Origin: Kocuria rosea
GTDB taxonomy: Bacteria; Actinomycetota; Actinomycetes; Actinomycetales; Micrococcaceae
Length of the DNA stretch: 64,000 bases
Assembly: GCF_006094695.1 (NCBI RefSeq)
Contig: NZ_CP035103.1
Location: 3,224,001-3,288,000, forward strand
Direction of reading: 5' to 3'
Shown here: positions 56-14,362 of the stretch, one piece after another
How the letters are laid out: each line of letters opens with the position of its first letter
Numbering within the stretch: position 1 is the first letter of the stretch
Notes under the pieces: model-generated
Seen by the model: only the letters and a program-made list of their open reading frames with translations
What the model was told of the DNA's origin: nothing
The model's database searches: none
Position numbers and translations under genes: made by a program

Positions 56-156
56 GCGGCGCAGCGCTCGCCCGGGGGCCGGGGCGGCCTGCCGGACCGT
101 CGACGCCGGGCGAGCCGCCGTTGCCGGTCCCCGGCGGCGGGGCCATGATGGGGACC

Positions 157-909
157 ATGACCGAGACCCCGCTCACGCACGTCGACGAGAACTGGCAGCG
201 CGCCCTGGTGGTGGTGGCGCACCCGGACGACATGGAGTTCGGCGCCGCCGCGGCCGTGGCCCGCTGGACCGGACAGGGCAAGGACGTGGTGTACTGCCTC
301 GTCACCAGCGGCGAGGCCGGCATCGACGGCCTCGAGCCGCAGCAGTGCGGTCCGCTGCGGGAGGCGGAGCAGCGGGAGTCCTGCCGGGTCGTGGGCGTGG
401 AGCAGGTGGAGTTCCTGCACCTGCCGGACGGGGTGCTCGAGTACGGGGTGGCGCTGCGGCGCCGGATCGCGGAGGTGGTCCGCCGGCACCGCCCGGACGT
501 GGTCATCACCAACAACTTCCGCGACACCTGGGACGGCGCCACCAACCTGAACCAGGCCGACCACATCGCCACGGGCCGGGCCACCCTGGACGCCGTGCGG
601 GACGCCGGCAACCGGTGGGTCTTCCCGGAGCAGGTCGAGGCGGGCCTGCAGCCGTGGCCCGACGTGCTGGCGGTATGGGCGGCGGCCTCGCCCGACTCCC
701 GGCACGCGGCGGACGTCACGGAGACCTTCGACGCCGGCGTGGAGTCCCTGCGCGCGCACGGCGCCTACCTCGAGGGCCTGGGCTGGACCGACTTCGACCC
801 GGACGCCTTCCTGCGGGGCAACGCCGCCGCCGTGGGCGAGCGGCTCGGGGTGCCGCTCGCGAGCTCCTTCGAGGTGCTCCCCCTGCGGTGGGGCGGCACG
901 GAGGACTGA
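157..909 (+). CDS. PIG-L (LmbE-like) family deacetylase
   Basis: A 250-residue protein of the PIG-L/LmbE family, zinc-dependent enzymes that remove N-acetyl groups from GlcNAc conjugates (MshB and mycothiol S-conjugate amidase are relatives). The metal motif AHPDD lies at residues 21-25, at the end of the first beta strand. A second histidine-containing segment, QADHIATG, lies near residue 130. There is no signal peptide, so the protein should be cytoplasmic. ATG at 157 is chosen because family homology begins just after it; ATG at 145 or 148 and TTG at 121 are also in frame. It is not next to mycothiol genes, so the substrate is unknown. A second PIG-L domain occurs in the gene at 8994-10352. 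Confidence 0.85.
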   Translation: MTETPLTHVDENWQRALVVVAHPDDMEFGAAAAVARWTGQGKDVVYCLVTSGEAGIDGLEPQQCGPLREAEQRESCRVVGVEQVEFLHLPDGVLEYGVALRRRIAEVVRRHRPDVVITNNFRDTWDGATNLNQADHIATGRATLDAVRDAGNRWVFPEQVEAGLQPWPDVLAVWAAASPDSRHAADVTETFDAGVESLRAHGAYLEGLGWTDFDPDAFLRGNAAAVGERLGVPLASSFEVLPLRWGGTED

Positions 910-7721: not shown

Positions 7722-8180
7722 TCACTTCTCGGAGACGGCCGCCGCGAGCCGCTCGAGGGAGTGCTCCAGGGCGCCCTCCTCGAAGAGCGGGAAGGACACG
7801 GCCTTCTTGGCCTCCGGGGTCGCGTGCTCCCACGAGTAGGTCTCGGTGACCAGCGTGGCGCCGGGGCCCTGGGGCTCGAGCTCCCAGATCCACTCCCAGC
7901 CCTCCAGCTCGGCGCCCTGCGGCTTGGGCTTCCAGGCGAGGAGCTTGTTCTCGTCGTAGCCGGAGACGGTGTTCTCCATGACGTAGTCGCCGCCCATGTG
8001 CTCGCCGTTCATGTTCATCACGAACACCTGGCCGACCTTCTGGATGCGCTGGTCGTCGCCGGAGACGACCGTGCCGGAGCCGTCGATCTGCCGGTGGCGC
8101 GAAGGCAGGCTGAGGACGTCGAAGATGGCGTCGGCGGGGGCGTCGATGACGCGGCTGGCGGACAGGCTGTTCTCGGACAC
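7722..8180 (-). CDS. SRPBCC (START/polyketide cyclase-like) family protein
   Basis: A 152-residue protein with the helix-grip fold. It opens with the typical SRVIDAPADAIFDVL segment (residues about 8-22) and ends with a long amphipathic C-terminal helix. The family binds hydrophobic ligands or acts as cyclase, AHSA1-like or toxin-like proteins, so no specific function can be claimed. GTG at 8180 is chosen because GAGAGGAA lies about 7 nt upstream and homology starts right after. A longer in-frame ATG at 8216 would add 12 residues with no homology. Confidence 0.8.
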   Translation of the reverse strand: MSENSLSASRVIDAPADAIFDVLSLPSRHRQIDGSGTVVSGDDQRIQKVGQVFVMNMNGEHMGGDYVMENTVSGYDENKLLAWKPKPQGAELEGWEWIWELEPQGPGATLVTETYSWEHATPEAKKAVSFPLFEEGALEHSLERLAAAVSEK

Positions 8181-8286
8181 GGGTGGTTCCTCTCGTCGGC
8201 AACGGTACGGCCCCACCGTAGGCAGACGGGGCCGGTCCCTGGCCAGGGCTGTCCGCTCCCCGCGTAGCCGGGTCCGGCCCGTGCGC

Positions 8287-9000
8287 TCAGCCCTGCCCCG
8301 CGCCGAGGCCCTGCGGCTCCCCCGCCAGCGCCCGCAGATAGCCGGCGAATCCCCGCTCGACCCGGCCGGTGCTCCGGCCCGAGGTCAGCACCCGCACCCG
8401 GTCCGTGGCGAGCACCCGGTGCCCGCGCGCCCGCGCCGCCTCCGCCAGCCCGACGTCCTCGCCGTGCGGCAGGGCCGGGAAGCCCCCGCACGCGGCGTAC
8501 ACGTCGGCGCGCACGCCCAGGTTCGCCGCGTGCACGTGGGGGTGCCCCTCCTCCAGCCGGTGCCGGGCGTGCCAGCGCGCCAGGAGACCCGCGGCCAGGT
8601 CCCCGGGGTCGGGCTCCACGGTGCCCAGGAGCAGCTCCGCCCCGCGCCCGGCCGCGTCCAGGTGGCCGGTGAGCCAGTGCGCGGGCACCGCACTGTCGGC
8701 GTCGGTCGACACGATCCAGGTGCGCGCCCCGGCGGCTCCCGCGGCGGCCACCGCGGCGGCCCGGGCCGCCCCCGCGGTGCCCCAGGACCCGGCGACGACG
8801 TCCGCCCCCGCCGCCGCGGCGATCCGGGCGCTGCCGTCGGTGCAGCGGTCCAGGGCCACGACGACGTCCACCTGCACCGGGGGCCGGGCCGCCCGCGCCC
8901 GGGCGGCGGCGTGCTGCACCGTGGCCAGGCACCGGCCGAGCAGCCGCTCCTCGTTCCGGACCGGCACCACCACGACCACCCGCTCCACCCCGGTCAGCAC
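8287..9000 (-). CDS. GT2-family glycosyltransferase
   Basis: A 237-residue soluble GT-A glycosyltransferase. The N-terminal strand VVVVVPVRNEERLL is typical of family 2. A TDAD metal/nucleotide motif lies near residue 100 and a HGEDVGL acceptor-side motif near residue 190. There is no membrane helix, unlike chitin or cellulose synthases. GTG at 9000 overlaps the stop of the PIG-L/methyltransferase gene by 7 nt (GTGCTGA), so translation is coupled. As the last gene of a three-gene operon it probably builds or extends the sugar that the upstream deacetylase/methyltransferase modifies. Donor and acceptor are unknown. Confidence 0.82.
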   Translation of the reverse strand: MLTGVERVVVVVPVRNEERLLGRCLATVQHAAARARAARPPVQVDVVVALDRCTDGSARIAAAAGADVVAGSWGTAGAARAAAVAAAGAAGARTWIVSTDADSAVPAHWLTGHLDAAGRGAELLLGTVEPDPGDLAAGLLARWHARHRLEEGHPHVHAANLGVRADVYAACGGFPALPHGEDVGLAEAARARGHRVLATDRVRVLTSGRSTGRVERGFAGYLRALAGEPQGLGAGQG

Positions 9001-10352
9001 GTGCCCGCGCCGGCGGTCTGCGGCCCCACGGGCTCGAAGACCTCCAGCAGGAAGTCGCGCTCCGTGTGGCGCAGCAGGGGCCCGAAGCGGGCGTCCGCGT
9101 GCACGGCGGCGTGCACGTCGGCCCCGTCGAGGGGCCAGCCCTCGATCGGGTGGCGCCAGTGGCACAGCAGGAGGTGGCCGTCCGGCTCGAGGGACCCGGC
9201 CACGCGGTCGAGGAGCCCGCCCAGCTGCGCGGCGTCGAGGAAGTAGCCGGTCTCGGAGACCACCACGAGGTCGAACCGCCCGGGCGGCCACTGCCCGGGC
9301 AGCCTGCGCTGCTCCACCTGCACGCCGGGGAGCTCCGCCAGCCGCTGCCGGGCGCGCTCGACCGCCACCCCGCTCGCGTCCACGGCCAGCACGGACTCCG
9401 CCCGGTCCGCGAGCTCGGCGGTGAGGGCGCCGAGGGAGCACCCCGCCTCCAGGACCCGGCGGTACCGGGGGCGCGGCAGCGCGGCGAGGGTCACGGCGCG
9501 CTTGCGCCGCTCGTACCAGGATGAGTCGACGTCCCAGGGGTCCTCGGCGCCGCGGTGGACGTCGTCGAACACGGCGGCGGCGTCCGGGGCCTGCCCTGCG
9601 GGCGGGAGCACGAAGAAGTGCTCGGTCGGGCGGCGGAACCGGGCCAGCACGTGGGGGCCCAGGAGGGCCTCGTCGCCCGGGGCCGGGGACAGCGGCAGGA
9701 CCTGCGAGGCGTGCGCGGCCAGGGCCTGCTCCTTGGCCGCGCACGCGGGGGCGTCCAGGGCGAGGACCCGGATCCCGTGCGGGGGCAGGTCCTCGGGCCC
9801 GCCCCAGTGCCACAGCCAGACGGGGTACTCGAGGCACTCGACGCCGTGGACGGAGGCGGCCGCCCGGGCGGCCCGGCCCAGCACCTCGTGGTCGACGTGC
9901 CCGTCGTCGCCCCACGGGGCGGCCAGCACGCCACGCCGCCCCGCGGCGGCCCACGCCGCGGCCTCGGCCACGGGGGCGCGCAGCGCCTCCCCCACCGACG
10001 CCAGGGCCCCGTCGGGCAGCCCCAGGAGCTCGGGGACCACGCCGTCGGCGAGCCGGTCCGTGGCGGCGGAGGCCTCGGTCCGGCGCACCCGGGCGAGGTC
10101 GGCGGGGGTCCGGGTCGGCGAGCGCGGGTGCGACTGCTCGCCCAGGGTCGCCACGACCACCCGCACCCGGGCGCCCGCCCGGGCCGCGAGGGAGATCAGG
10201 CCGCCCGCGCCGAGGCTCTCGTCGTCCGGGTGGGCGGCGAGGACCACGAGGCGGTCGATCCCGTCGAGCTCGAGCGGGCGCGCGGCGTGCAGGCGCGGCG
10301 CCCGCGCCCACACCGCCTCGGGGGTGCCGGGGTCCCGGTGGTCGAACGTCAC
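8994..10352 (-). CDS. PIG-L deacetylase fused to NodS-like methyltransferase
   Basis: A 452-residue bifunctional protein. Residues about 30-225 are a PIG-L deacetylase domain with the metal motif AHPDD at 40-44 and a second segment DGHVDHEVLG. Residues about 260-440 are a class I SAM-dependent methyltransferase. It opens with DPWDVDSSWYERRK, has the SAM loop LEAGCSLGALT, and a post-I acidic segment AVDAS. The DPW...YE..K...LP..RY order and SET..(Y)(F) plus CHW elements look like NodS, the N-methyltransferase that acts on the free amine of Nod-factor precursors. Deacetylation followed by N-methylation of an amino sugar is therefore a reasonable inference. GTG at 10352 shares GTGA with the stop of the upstream acyl-CoA dehydrogenase gene, and the downstream GT2 gene overlaps its end. 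Confidence 0.83.
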   Translation of the reverse strand: MTFDHRDPGTPEAVWARAPRLHAARPLELDGIDRLVVLAAHPDDESLGAGGLISLAARAGARVRVVVATLGEQSHPRSPTRTPADLARVRRTEASAATDRLADGVVPELLGLPDGALASVGEALRAPVAEAAAWAAAGRRGVLAAPWGDDGHVDHEVLGRAARAAASVHGVECLEYPVWLWHWGGPEDLPPHGIRVLALDAPACAAKEQALAAHASQVLPLSPAPGDEALLGPHVLARFRRPTEHFFVLPPAGQAPDAAAVFDDVHRGAEDPWDVDSSWYERRKRAVTLAALPRPRYRRVLEAGCSLGALTAELADRAESVLAVDASGVAVERARQRLAELPGVQVEQRRLPGQWPPGRFDLVVVSETGYFLDAAQLGGLLDRVAGSLEPDGHLLLCHWRHPIEGWPLDGADVHAAVHADARFGPLLRHTERDFLLEVFEPVGPQTAGAGTC

Positions 10353-11410
10353 CACGGGCGGTCCCCCGCCGCGCCCTCGAGCAGGGCCCGGCCCAGTGCC
10401 GCGGCGTCCCGCTGCGCGTGCTCCTGCCGGACGTACACCTGCAGGGCGCTCACCCGGCGGACGTGCTCGGGCGCGCCGGTGAGCGGGCCCGGCCCGGTGG
10501 CGGCCGAGACCTCCGCGGTCACGGCCTCCGCCGTCCGGGCGACGACGCGGCGGGTGCGCAGGGCCAGGACCGCGCCGCGCTCCCCGCCGGCCCGGCCGGC
10601 GTCGACCTGCTCCGCCGCCGAGCGCAGGGCCGTGCGGGCGGAGTGCAGGAGGGTGTCGACGACGCCGAGCGCCGCGTGCCCCACCTGGTCCAGCGGCCGC
10701 ACGTCCGGGGCCCGGCGCCGCACGGCGTCTCCCCACAGGACGTCGGCCACCCCGGCCGCGCCGCCGTACCAGCACGCGGCCACGCCGATCCCGCCCCAGG
10801 CGAAGCCGGGGCGCTCCAGGTACCACCCGTCCTCGCCGACCGGCACGGCCGGCACCGCCGTGCACCGCACGGCGCCGGTCGGCACGTCCCGCAGCCCGGC
10901 CGGCCGCCAGTCCTCGGTGCTCCCGGGGACGACCCCGGGGTGGGCGAGGTCCACGGCGAAGGCCCGGCGGCGGCCTCCGCCGGTGCTCGCGGTGACCACG
11001 GCCCGGTCGAGGTGCGCGGCGAGCGAGCACCACGCCTTGGTGCCCGTGAGCTCCCACCCGCCGGTCCCGTGGCGGGCCACGAGCTCGTGACCGGGGGCCT
11101 CGGCGGCCCAGACGCCCCAGGCGGCGGGCGGACCGGCGAGCTCCTCGAGTCCCGCCTGGTGCAGGATCGCGAGGGCGTCCAGGTGCGGCTCGACCACGCG
11201 GGCGAGGGACAGGTCGAGCCGGGCGAGCTCGGCGAGCCGCCGCCACAGCTGTCCGGTGCGGCCGGCGCCGGGCAGGGGGAGCTCCTCGCCGAGCGCCCGG
11301 GCCACGCCCAGGGCCTGGTCCAGGGCGCCCGGGGTGCCGGCGCGCAGGGCCGCCGCGGCCTCCTCGGCGCGTCCGGGGCCGGCGGCGGGTCGGGGGTGCG
11401 GCGGGGGCAT
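10349..11410 (-). CDS. Short, divergent acyl-CoA dehydrogenase-like flavoprotein
   Basis: A 353-residue protein with acyl-CoA dehydrogenase architecture: an N-terminal helical part, a central beta domain with the flavin-side segment TGTKAWCSLA near residue 120, then a C-terminal helical domain. It is shorter than usual members (about 380-390 residues) and quite diverged. I cannot point confidently to the catalytic glutamate. It is the first gene of a coupled operon (4-nt GTGA overlap with the next gene). This suggests it supplies or modifies a chain or intermediate for the amino-sugar pathway rather than working in general beta-oxidation. Flavin binding is inferred from family resemblance. 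The 121 bp between it and the moeB gene show nothing notable. Confidence 0.75.
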   Translation of the reverse strand: MPPPHPRPAAGPGRAEEAAAALRAGTPGALDQALGVARALGEELPLPGAGRTGQLWRRLAELARLDLSLARVVEPHLDALAILHQAGLEELAGPPAAWGVWAAEAPGHELVARHGTGGWELTGTKAWCSLAAHLDRAVVTASTGGGRRRAFAVDLAHPGVVPGSTEDWRPAGLRDVPTGAVRCTAVPAVPVGEDGWYLERPGFAWGGIGVAACWYGGAAGVADVLWGDAVRRRAPDVRPLDQVGHAALGVVDTLLHSARTALRSAAEQVDAGRAGGERGAVLALRTRRVVARTAEAVTAEVSAATGPGPLTGAPEHVRRVSALQVYVRQEHAQRDAAALGRALLEGAAGDRPW

Positions 11411-11531
11411 GCGGTGTCCATCGGTCGGCGGCAGGGAGACGATCAGCCTACGTCCTGCCCGCCGGGCCCGCTCGCGCCCCCCCTCCGCAGCGCTCCGGCG
11501 AGGACCCGCGAGCGGGCCTCGGCGGACCGGG

Positions 11532-12704
11532 TCAGTAGGCCTGCTGGGACGGGTCCACCTGCTCGATCCACGCCAGCACCCCGCCCTCGAGGTGCGCGAC
11601 GTCGGTGCGGCCCGCGGCGCGCAGGAGGTGCAGGGCCCGTTCGGAGCGCGCCCCGGCCTTGCAGTGCAGCAGCACCCGGCGGCCCGGGGCGATCCGGGCG
11701 AGGGCCTCCCCGGACTCGAACTGGTCCAGCGGGAGCAGCCGTGCCCCGGGGATCGCCGCGAGCCGGGCCTCGTAGGGCTCCCGGACGTCGACGAGCTCGA
11801 AGTCCGCGGCGCCGCGCTCCCGTGCCGCCAGCAGCTCCGCGAGCTCGGGGGCCGTCACGGTGGGGACGCCTCCCGGCTGCGGGCCGGGCGCCGGGCAGGC
11901 GGGGGCGCTGTCGCCGGCCGACGCCAGGGTGGTCACGGGCGCGCGGCCCGGCGTGGGCACCAGCGGGATCTCCCACCAGCGCGCCGAGAGGGCGTCGTAG
12001 GTGGCGACCCGGCCGAGCATCGTGGTGCCGATCCCGGTGACCAGCTTGACGGCCTCGACCGCCATGGCGGTGCCCAGCAGTCCCGGCAGCACGCCGAGCA
12101 CCCCGGCCTCGGCGCAGCTGGGCACCGTGCCCGGCGCCGGGGGCACGGTGTAGAGGTCGCGGTAGGTGGGCCCGTGCGCGCCCCAGAACACCGAGTACTG
12201 GCCGTCGAAGCGCAGGATCGAGCCCCACACGTGCGGGACACCGGCCAGCTCGCACGCGTCGGAGACGAGGTAGCGGGTCTCGAAGTTGTCCGTGCCGTCC
12301 AGGACGAGGTCGTACCCGGCGAGGACCTCCTCCGCACTCTCCGCGGTGAGCCGCTCGCGGTGCTCCACGACGCGCACCAGCGGGTTGAGGTCGGCGATCC
12401 GCGCGGCGGCCGAGGCGGTCTTGGGCGCCCCGAGGGTCCCCTCGCCGTGGATCACCTGGCGCTGCAGGTTGGAGGCGTCCACGTCGTCGTCGTCGACGAC
12501 ACCGAGGGTCCCGACGCCCGCGGCGGCGAGGTAGAGCAGGGCCGGGGAGCCGAGGCCGCCCGCGCCCACGCACAGCACCCGGGCGTTCTTGAGCCGCCGC
12601 TGGCCCTCCTCGCCGATCTCGGGGACGGTCAGGTGGCGGGCGTAGCGGCGCAGCTCGGCGTCGGTGAGCTCCGCGGCGGGCTCGACGAGCGGGGAGAGGT
12701 CCAC
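11532..12704 (-). CDS. moeB: MoeB/ThiF-type adenylyltransferase with rhodanese domain
   Basis: About 390 residues. The N-terminal E1-like domain has the nucleotide loop GAGGLG and the DNLQRQ-like segment SNLQRQ. It keeps the SCAEAGVLG cysteine loop. The C-terminal rhodanese domain covers about residues 285-385, with active-site cysteine in LHCKAGARSER. Such MoeB-rhodanese (MoeZ-type) proteins adenylate the C-terminal glycine of MoaD and supply sulfur. Oddly, the zinc-binding CxxC pairs of typical MoeB are absent: PCYRC is replaced by PTYRD near residue 178, and the second pair after the core is missing. GTG at 12704 leaves a 5-bp gap to moaE. GTG at 12731 is an alternative. Last gene of the moaC-mogA-moaE-moeB operon. 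Confidence 0.88.
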   Translation of the reverse strand: MDLSPLVEPAAELTDAELRRYARHLTVPEIGEEGQRRLKNARVLCVGAGGLGSPALLYLAAAGVGTLGVVDDDDVDASNLQRQVIHGEGTLGAPKTASAAARIADLNPLVRVVEHRERLTAESAEEVLAGYDLVLDGTDNFETRYLVSDACELAGVPHVWGSILRFDGQYSVFWGAHGPTYRDLYTVPPAPGTVPSCAEAGVLGVLPGLLGTAMAVEAVKLVTGIGTTMLGRVATYDALSARWWEIPLVPTPGRAPVTTLASAGDSAPACPAPGPQPGGVPTVTAPELAELLAARERGAADFELVDVREPYEARLAAIPGARLLPLDQFESGEALARIAPGRRVLLHCKAGARSERALHLLRAAGRTDVAHLEGGVLAWIEQVDPSQQAY

Positions 12705-12709
12705 GGCGC

Positions 12710-13162
12710 TCAGGCGTCCAGTCCGACCCACTCGGTGGAGCCGTCCGCGAACCGCTGCTCCTTCCAGATGGGCACCTCGGTCTTGATCCGGTCCACGAGC
12801 GCGTCGCAGGCGGCGAAGGCGAGCTTGCGGTGGGCGGCGGCCACGGCGGCCTCCAGGGCGGAGTCCCCCACGCGCAGGTGGCCGACCCGGTGGGCGGCCC
12901 AGATCCGCACCCCGGGGAACTCCTCGGCGACCCGGCGGGCCACGTCCTGGACGGCCCGGTCCGCGCCGGGGTGGCAGGTGTAGTCGAGGCTGGTGACGGG
13001 GCGGCCGCCGTCGTGGTCGCGGATGACACCGCTGAAGGAGACCACGGCGCCGGTGCGCTCGTCCTGCACGGCCTCGACGGCCCGGGCGTGGTCCAGGGGC
13101 TCCTCGGTGACGAAGGCGCCGACCACGGCGGTCTCCGCCTGGATCGGTCCTGGTGTGCTCAT
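12710..13162 (-). CDS. moaE: Molybdopterin synthase catalytic subunit MoaE
   Basis: A 150-residue large subunit of molybdopterin synthase, which with thiocarboxylated MoaD inserts sulfur into cyclic pyranopterin. FSGVIRDHDGG (about residues 42-52) holds the conserved arginine. The substrate-side RVGHLRVGDSA and the catalytic lysine region DRIKTEVPIWKEQ are present. ATG at 13162 has GAGGAG about 8 nt upstream and overlaps the stop of mogA by 4 nt (ATGA). Its MoaD partner is encoded separately, at 28935. Confidence 0.95.
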   Translation of the reverse strand: MSTPGPIQAETAVVGAFVTEEPLDHARAVEAVQDERTGAVVSFSGVIRDHDGGRPVTSLDYTCHPGADRAVQDVARRVAEEFPGVRIWAAHRVGHLRVGDSALEAAVAAAHRKLAFAACDALVDRIKTEVPIWKEQRFADGSTEWVGLDA

Positions 13163-13698
13163 CGGTCGGTCTCCTCGTGCGGTCGGGGGTCGTGGCGGGG
13201 GCCGTCGTGCCCGCGGTCGCGGTGGCCCTCGAGCTGGTCGCAGACGTGGTCGAGGATCGGCTCGAGGACCTTCAGCCCGTCCCAGACCCCGCCGGTGGAG
13301 CCGGGGAGGTTGACCACGAAGGTGGCGCCGCTGACCCCGGCGTGCCCGCGGCTGAGCACCGCCAGGGGGGTGGTCCTCCGGCCCTCCGCCCACAGTGCCT
13401 CCATGATGCCGGGCAGCTCGCGGTCGAGGAAGGGCCGGGTCATCTCGGGGGTGAGGTCGTCCGGGCCGAGGCCGGTCCCGCCGCTGGTGACGACCACCCG
13501 GGGGCGGTCCGCGGGGGCCCGGGTCACGAGCAGCCGCTCCAGCTCGGCGCGCACGTCCTCGCCGTCGGCCACCACGAACGGACCTTCGACCTCGAAGCCG
13601 TGGGAGCCGAACCAGTCGGCGGCGATCCGCCCGCTCCGGTCCTGGTAGACCCCGGCGGCGGCGCGGGTGGAGGCGACGATGACGGCGGCGCTCCTCAT
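13159..13698 (-). CDS. mogA: MogA/MoaB-family molybdopterin adenylyltransferase
   Basis: A 179-residue protein of the MogA/MoaB family, which adenylates molybdopterin before metal insertion. [17 protein letters not shown] (about residues 70-86) is the family signature. The [12 protein letters not shown] loop follows near residue 135. A charged His/Arg/Asp-rich tail of about 20 residues ends the protein. ATG at 13698 overlaps the moaC stop by 4 nt, and its own stop overlaps the moaE start, so translation of the operon is tightly coupled. In this window the MoeA proteins at 26026 and 30138 would carry out the next step. Confidence 0.92.
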
Positions 13699-14192
13699 GC
13701 GGCGTCCCCGTCGGTCCGCGCCCAGTCCCCGGACTTGCCGCCGGACTTCGCGAGCACCCTGCCCCGGTCGATCTCGGCCAGCTTGTCCACGGCCTTGATC
13801 ATGTCGTAGAGGGTCAGGGCGGCCACCGAGGCCGCGGTCAGCGCCTCCATCTCCACGCCGGTCACCCCGCACGTGCGCACCGTCGCGGTGATCCGCACGC
13901 CGTCCGCCAGCCGCTCGAAGTCCACGGTCACCTTGCTGATCGGCAGCGGGTGGCACAGCGGGACGAGCTCCGGGGTCCGCTTGGCCGCCATGATGCCGGC
14001 CACCCGGGCCACCGGCAGGGCGTCCCCCTTGGGGAGGTCCGCGGCGAAGACCTGCTCGACGACGTCGGGGCGGGTGCGCAGCGTGGCCGTCGCGGTGGCC
14101 TCGCGGGTGGTCACGGCCTTGTCGGAGACGTCCACCATGTGCGCGGACCCGTCCGCCCGGACGTGCGTGAGGCTCTGCTGCTGCTCGGTCAT
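13695..14192 (-). CDS. moaC: Cyclic pyranopterin monophosphate synthase MoaC
   Basis: A 165-residue protein that converts the MoaA product to cyclic pyranopterin monophosphate. The family motif PLCHPLPIS near residue 80 holds the active-site histidine. The [19 protein letters not shown] helix near residue 115 carries the conserved Glu, and [20 protein letters not shown] contains the catalytic lysine region. ATG at 14192 has AGGGGA about 11 nt upstream and homology begins there; an upstream start at 14264 adds 24 residues without homology. First gene of a four-gene moco operon, divergent from the flavohaemoglobin gene. Confidence 0.95.
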
Positions 14193-14362
14193 GTCGGTTC
14201 GGTCCCCTTCGGCTCTCCCGGATGGTGCGTCCCTCCCATTCTGGCCCACCCCCGCGCCGCGCACCGCCGCGTCATGTCTGGTCCCGTGCCGGGGCGCGGT
14301 GCTAGCTTGACGGAACGCGACCAGAGTGCCGTCGACGCCGCCGGCACTCGGAAGGAGCCACC

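Follow-up and report, generated by a model that had tools for sequence, protein, structure and literature searches.

A putative amino-sugar tailoring module of four enzymes, partly fused in Kocuria rosea and other actinobacteria

Background

Modified chitooligosaccharides are built in rhizobia by the deacetylase NodB, the N-methyltransferase NodS and NodC, a family 2 glycosyltransferase (GT2). Here we describe three adjoining genes in a 64,000-nucleotide stretch of the Kocuria rosea genome (contig NZ_CP035103.1, positions 3,224,001 to 3,288,000; hereafter the window), which encode a flavoprotein of acyl-CoA dehydrogenase (ACAD) fold, a fusion of a PIG-L de-N-acetylase with a NodS-like methyltransferase (MT) that would use S-adenosylmethionine (SAM), and a GT2 glycosyltransferase. 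Rhizobial NodB-NodC-NodS likewise place a GT2, a de-N-acetylase and a NodS-fold methyltransferase in one operon, and operons read here had the arrangements nodA-B-C-MT-U (L170) and nodB-C-S (L165). The window differs in that its three genes include no NodA or NodC equivalent, PIG-L stands in the place of NodB and an ACAD-fold flavoenzyme is added, while the MT falls outside the NodS clade and the module occurs in four phyla.

A similar set of functions is found on one chain in WP_243254667.1 of Sulfitobacter indolifex, named at NCBI a 'trifunctional glycosyltransferase/class I SAM-dependent methyltransferase/polysaccharide deacetylase'. Its deacetylase is NodB-type in contrast to the PIG-L domain of the window, its MT grouped with NodS in our tree (95/77), and no ACAD gene was present within 8 kb on either side in the incomplete annotation. 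Sulfitobacter indolifex and Mesorhizobium encode chains of about 1000 residues (L134:6393-9473 and L135:6486-9398) in which GT2 and NodS-like MT domains accompany a deacetylase of NodB type; this separate protein family is an independent Nod-like combination.

No description of the module or its product was recognised in searches of a library of open-licence PubMed Central (PMC) papers, though one may still exist in print. Passages on a lipopolysaccharide-core region with a PIG-L gene (PMC8005017) and on an aminoglycoside cluster (PMC8770908) concern systems different from the module. The module is conserved, and its enzyme families are open to direct assay.

On balance, the three genes probably represent a widespread module of four enzymes, here in its actinobacterial and partly fused state, for amino-sugar tailoring with an oxidation step and a stress role. 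Its core, a predicted de-N-acetylation followed by N-methylation of an amino sugar, is put forward with greater assurance and regarded as likely.

Distribution, gene order and fusions

The set recurred across actinobacteria. Among the 80 named loci, kept as the best of 238 relatives found with the MT domain and all actinobacterial, the order ACAD-PIGL-MT-GT2 was found on one strand at 77, or at 78 when L109, with its ACAD gene cut by a contig end, is counted. These loci were found with close-relative patterns and therefore say little on distant forms. The exceptions to the full set were L106, on a 3.7-kb contig, and L105 of Nocardioides glacieisoli, where the ACAD gene adjoins the MT gene and neither PIG-L nor GT2 was found in the fetched 14.5 kb. 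From this locus, ACAD and MT may be the tightest pair. PIG-L and MT shared one reading frame at 79 of the 80 loci. When 75 fused loci were tested, the frame also took in GT2 at two, both from Micrococcus (L097 and L098). The named loci nearest to the window by sequence were those of Kocuria L051 and L069. Strong matches to the fusion (E <= 6.3e-67) were present in 23 of 59 related genomes, among them 14 of the 27 that belong to the genus of the window (a count that includes the genome of the window itself), so that its presence is patchy. The MT was detected at E 1e-15 in 20 of 198 genomes drawn from the phylum.

Separate genes in the order ACAD-PIGL-MT were annotated near one another on plasmids of Kitasatospora, two Deinococcus, Pandoraea, Bradyrhizobium, Sulfitobacter, Roseomonas, Novosphingobium and Limimaricola, and were found by profile in Nostoc and one Acinetobacter baumannii record. 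A GT2 gene was convergent to the module in Deinococcus sp. AJ005, Bradyrhizobium and Nostoc and was not annotated beside it in Roseomonas and Deinococcus wulumuqiensis, where the plasmid annotation is incomplete. The module is thus on chromosomes and plasmids of Actinomycetota, Deinococcota, Cyanobacteriota and Pseudomonadota, and an initial description of this DNA made from its letters alone (the preliminary description), which had seen an actinobacterial set of three genes, was too narrow, as four functions lie on separate genes in other phyla. Permuted orders, GT-ACAD-PIGL-MT, ACAD-MT-PIGL-GT, GT-PIGL-ACAD-MT and GT-MT-PIGL-ACAD, were found at L148-L151, which argues for a functional tie beyond shared descent alone, and the usual order was found at L154. 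At the Deinococcus wulumuqiensis locus a TnpB-family gene (L027:8484-9836) lies between ACAD and PIG-L as an apparent insertion into the module.

Exchange of PIG-L for a NodB-type deacetylase

Seventeen of the 22 MT places from the phylum survey were widened to about 15 kb and searched with profiles. PIG-L was present at five, a NodB-type deacetylase at ten, neither at two (L152 and L153) and both at none. The NodB-type gene was located within 300 nucleotides upstream of the ACAD gene at nine loci and of the MT gene at one (L144), where ACAD and GT2 were not found by profile. The ten loci represent nine genomes of family groups f32 and f23. Their deacetylases scored above the PF01522 cut-off in the two examples L138 (92.2 bits) and L146 (92.0 bits), and the best NCBIfam model for that of L138 was NodB, at 133.7 bits under a cut-off of 240. 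This sister form, in which a deacetylase of NodB type takes the place of the missing PIG-L, lends support to the proposal that PIG-L replaces NodB. The mutual exclusion leads to a sharp prediction, namely de-N-acetylation of an amino sugar and then its N-methylation. A NodB-like gene was also seen about 6 kb from one PIG-L locus (L122).

In a tree of 54 MT rows the NodB-variant rows formed a cluster (98/89) that took in a single long-branched row of the outgroup, and judged from this one sequence tree the exchange may have been a single event in this sample. Nine of the ten NodB-variant loci (L138-L143 and L145-L147) carry a pyridine-nucleotide reductase gene between MT and GT2, whose product in the one example tested was nearest to dioxygenase ferredoxin-NAD reductases, and a homologue stands just before the ACAD gene at one of the 80 PIG-L loci (L090:4150-5190). 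Such a ferredoxin-NAD reductase-like protein may supply the flavoenzyme with electrons.

The deacetylase and the MT might act on different substrates and simply be co-expressed stress enzymes. ACAD, MT and GT2 occur together in Cupriavidus with the nearest PIG-L apart, ACAD and MT stand alone at L105, and L152 has no deacetylase. We nonetheless consider this improbable given the two kinds of fusion, the permuted orders and the exclusion of PIG-L and NodB-type genes at the same kind of locus.

Deacetylase, methyltransferase and glycosyltransferase domains

In Pfam, PIG-L (PF02585) covered residues 39-168 of the fusion at 77.4 bits (cut-off 28.2) and NodS covered residues 272-404 at 50.6 bits (cut-off 24), and the fusion was modelled by AlphaFold2 with a predicted local distance difference test score (pLDDT) of 93.0. 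All of the motifs given for it in the preliminary description (AHPDD(E), DPW, YERRK, LPRPRY, GCSLG and CHW) were present in the translation. Residues H41, P42, D43, D44, E45, D150, H152, D154 and H155 were invariant in 12 of 12 aligned PIG-L sequences, and we take the HPDDE motif and the second histidine (H155) to provide the zinc ligands. The solved relatives of this domain were mostly N-acetylglucosamine (GlcNAc) de-N-acetylases, and those named included diacetylchitobiose deacetylase, BshB, MshB and glycopeptide deacetylases.

MshB and BshB belong to the PIG-L family and have the HPDDE motif in common with the window domain. Their place among its nearest solved relatives, together with the redox and stress neighbours described below, would fit a module that modifies a low-molecular-weight thiol or a GlcNAc-inositol or GlcNAc-malate metabolite, as in mycothiol and bacillithiol metabolism. 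This is very improbable: the fusion scored 36.7 of 224.35 bits for the MshB equivalog and 39.7 of 182.5 bits for that of BshB1, both far under the cut-offs, and two proteins encoded elsewhere in the genome are Mca, which passes its cut-off at 436.1 bits, and one that is MshB-like, which falls short of 224.35 at 197.5 bits. The mycothiol and bacillithiol route was rejected on these grounds, and none of the three window genes encodes a ligase by Pfam. Six PIG-L places were counted in the genome of the window.

The MT domain has the NodS fold, and NodS was its best characterised match by both sequence and fold, followed by fold with phosphoethanolamine and protein-N-terminal N-methyltransferases. 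No C- or O-methyltransferase matched better, and the NodS-like assignment stands. The score for the NodS equivalog NF041650 was 56.7 bits, far under the cut-off of 300, although it was still the best NCBIfam model for the fusion, and the five NodS rows of the tree formed their own group (100/100) without module MTs, in a tree with a long-branched, scattered outgroup and an unsure root. Among the closest known counterparts is 4ISC, a solved 'Methyltransferase' of Pseudomonas syringae whose entry title gives no function. A role in anti-phage defence was considered and set aside, as the sole PADLOC match was that of the MT domain to mad2 (54.9 bits), taken as general methyltransferase similarity.

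The third gene matched the GT2 profile in Pfam at 40.9 bits (cut-off 23.3), and its DxD motif, TDAD, was invariant in 18 of 18 sequences. Seven NCBIfam models matched at E 0.1 and the NodC model was absent from them, so the enzyme is not NodC-like. Nor is it a member of the arsenosugar glycosyltransferases (TIGR04283, 44 of 182 bits).

The flavoprotein

The flavoprotein had been labelled an acyl-CoA dehydrogenase. In Pfam it scored 31.6 bits for ACAD_M, below the cut-off of 33.3, and 23.5 bits for ACAD_1 with a cut-off of 22.4, and no NCBIfam model matched at 0.1. When the confident predicted model (pLDDT 91.2) was searched with Foldseek, KijD3, TdsC, DszC, DnmZ and ORF36 ranked high, interspersed with ordinary ACADs; VIA-align ranked dehydrogenases first with flavin monooxygenases within about 2 Z units. 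The protein thus has both the acyl-CoA dehydrogenase fold and that of ACAD-fold flavin monooxygenases, and such small differences mean that fold leaves its reaction undecided. The nitrososynthase-type KijD3, DnmZ and ORF36 as well as DszC, TdsC and SfnB share its fold at 17-22% identity. KijD3 and DnmZ carry out N-oxygenation of amino sugars.

The C-terminal catalytic-glutamate motif EGT of acyl-CoA dehydrogenases was absent from all 105 module ACAD copies that reach the site. The count is based on 111 loci, of which L106, L109, L144 and L153 yielded no ACAD and L023 and L063 have frames that stop before the site, and it concerns the C-terminal site, the alternative isovaleryl-type glutamate position being outside it. 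The site reads QVYVRQEHAQRD in the window and aligns with valine, isoleucine or leucine in module rows in alignments of 7 and 13 rows. A looser pattern, E[GSAT][TSG], was found in five of the 105 tails, and the two that were placed lie off the EGT site. Nine other PF00441 places of the same genome were inspected: six have EGT, two (L156 and L162) do not and one (L163) could not be aligned. A signature R-x-x-E-P-H-x-D, beginning at R71, is common to 34 aligned actinobacterial module ACADs, as a signature within the module. RxxFG gave three loose matches in module ACADs, too weak for use. The best models for two module ACADs, among SfnB, DszC and Rv1679, were weak and far below cut-off (L028, SfnB at 46.2 of 430.9 bits; L138, DszC at 27 of 850 bits). 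From the missing EGT, the monooxygenases near the top by fold and the shared signature, we read the flavoprotein, with modest confidence, not as an acyl-CoA dehydrogenase but as an oxidase or a monooxygenase; if this is true, the annotation label of the module flavoproteins would be corrected.

The flavoprotein could instead act on an acyl chain, through desaturation of a lipid or acyl group, and the product be an acylated, lipid-linked amino-sugar glycoconjugate of the envelope, formally nearer to a Nod factor, with the core chemistry unchanged. The fold tie with true acyl-CoA dehydrogenases is consistent with this, as are the best PDB profile match of the ACAD (caffeyl-CoA reductase CarC, 6.5e-10), the best PDB relatives of the GT2 profile (ArnC-type undecaprenyl-phosphate transferases, 2e-7), and extra glycosyltransferase genes and glf near some modules with a 3-oxoacyl-acyl carrier protein synthase III-type gene at one locus. 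The absence of the catalytic motif from every copy argues against an acyl substrate, and no recurring acyltransferase neighbour was seen in the incomplete plasmid annotations. We regard acyl-chain chemistry as unlikely, though less so than separate substrates or a thiol product.

Module ACADs of Deinococcus (L022:7572-9935 and L027:6104-8476) have about 400 extra N-terminal residues. These matched nothing in Pfam in either copy, and a PDB sequence search with that of L022 was also without a match. On the Acinetobacter soli plasmid (L023, about 11079-11606) the ACAD frame is apparently broken and unannotated, while that of Acinetobacter baumannii L133 is long and open.

Neighbouring genes and a possible stress role

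Dps was encoded less than 1 kb before the ACAD match at 32 of the 80 named loci. Other genes nearby, labelled by reading sequences only, were YihY/BrkB-like (37 of 80), DUF3618-like (17 of 80) and holin-like (15 of 80). Stress-type genes were found within about 10 kb at seven of 11 annotated plasmid loci, a count made on incomplete annotation without a background control, and included catalase, Dps, Ku/LigD, CsbD, Hsp20 and ferritin-like or spore-photoproduct-lyase genes; none was present at L023, L027, L028 and L137 in that annotation. The recurrent Dps, catalase and Ku/LigD neighbours point to stress protection, an idea that had no place in the preliminary description. Deinococcus, in which the module also occurs, is radiation-tolerant. 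An EcfG general-stress promoter was unsupported: a loose motif preceded two of ten ACAD genes (two of the five alphaproteobacterial ones), with no chance control.

Proposed pathway

In the proposed order of steps, the GT2 enzyme would take an N-acetylated hexosamine, presumably of GlcNAc type, off its sugar nucleotide and attach it to an acceptor. The PIG-L domain, or the NodB-type deacetylase of the sister form, would strip the N-acetyl group, and the NodS-like domain, which is joined to PIG-L in one chain in the window, would methylate the freed amine with SAM. The flavoprotein would then oxidise the N-methylamine or the amino sugar, perhaps by N-oxygenation as by KijD3 and DnmZ. Judging from the neighbours, the product probably aids survival of oxidative, desiccation or starvation stress. 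Directly observed are which genes are present and how they are ordered and fused, the exchange of deacetylases, the predicted folds, the motifs kept or lost and the neighbours; which sugar and acceptor are used, how the steps follow one another, what the flavoenzyme does and the role in stress are inferred. The earlier idea of deacetylation followed by methylation thus has strong comparative support in its core chemistry; its frame of three genes, actinobacteria and an acyl-CoA dehydrogenase did not hold.

If the pathway is as proposed, its product would found a class of N-methyl amino-sugar compounds that is new, perhaps made in a stress-survival route, and the module, outside symbiosis, would be a candidate for kinship by descent with the synthesis of Nod factors. 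Speculatively, and less likely than not, a pan-bacterial, non-symbiotic pathway of stress survival would lead to an N-methylated, flavin-oxidised amino-sugar compound, with an MT that has ancestry in common with NodS and with PIG-L and NodB-type deacetylases exchanged; the Nod-factor toolkit may then have arisen from pieces of such older stress chemistry and not as an invention for symbiosis.

Gene layout in the window

All three genes (Table 1) are open on the reverse strand of a genome that consists of one 3.95-Mb contig. The operon with overlaps of 4 and 7 nucleotides reported earlier was confirmed: the ACAD and fusion genes overlap by 4 nucleotides, or by 7 with the GTG start at 10355, and the fusion and GT2 genes by 7. 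A promoter and terminator scan of 8100-11700 gave no match.

Table 1. Coordinates of the module genes and fusion domains in the window
Feature	Position	Strand	Details
ACAD-like flavoprotein gene	10349..11410	-	353 aa, open frame
PIG-L de-N-acetylase/NodS-like SAM methyltransferase fusion	8994..10352	-	GTG 10352 (452 aa) or GTG 10355 (453 aa)
PIG-L deacetylase domain and linker	9600..10352	-	AHPDDE, SHP, DxHxDH, YPVWLWHW
NodS-like methyltransferase domain	8997..9599	-	DPW, YExxK, GCSxG, SExxY
GT2 glycosyltransferase gene	8287..9000	-	GTG 9000, 237 aa; TDADS, VPxxW, EDV, TSGR

About 120 nucleotides upstream of the ACAD gene and on the same strand are genes related to the molybdenum cofactor (ThiF/rhodanese, MoaE, MoCF and MoaC; 11532-14264). 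At the left end of the window (121-909, forward strand), outside the module, is a gene for a stand-alone PIG-L/LmbE protein (106.6 bits).

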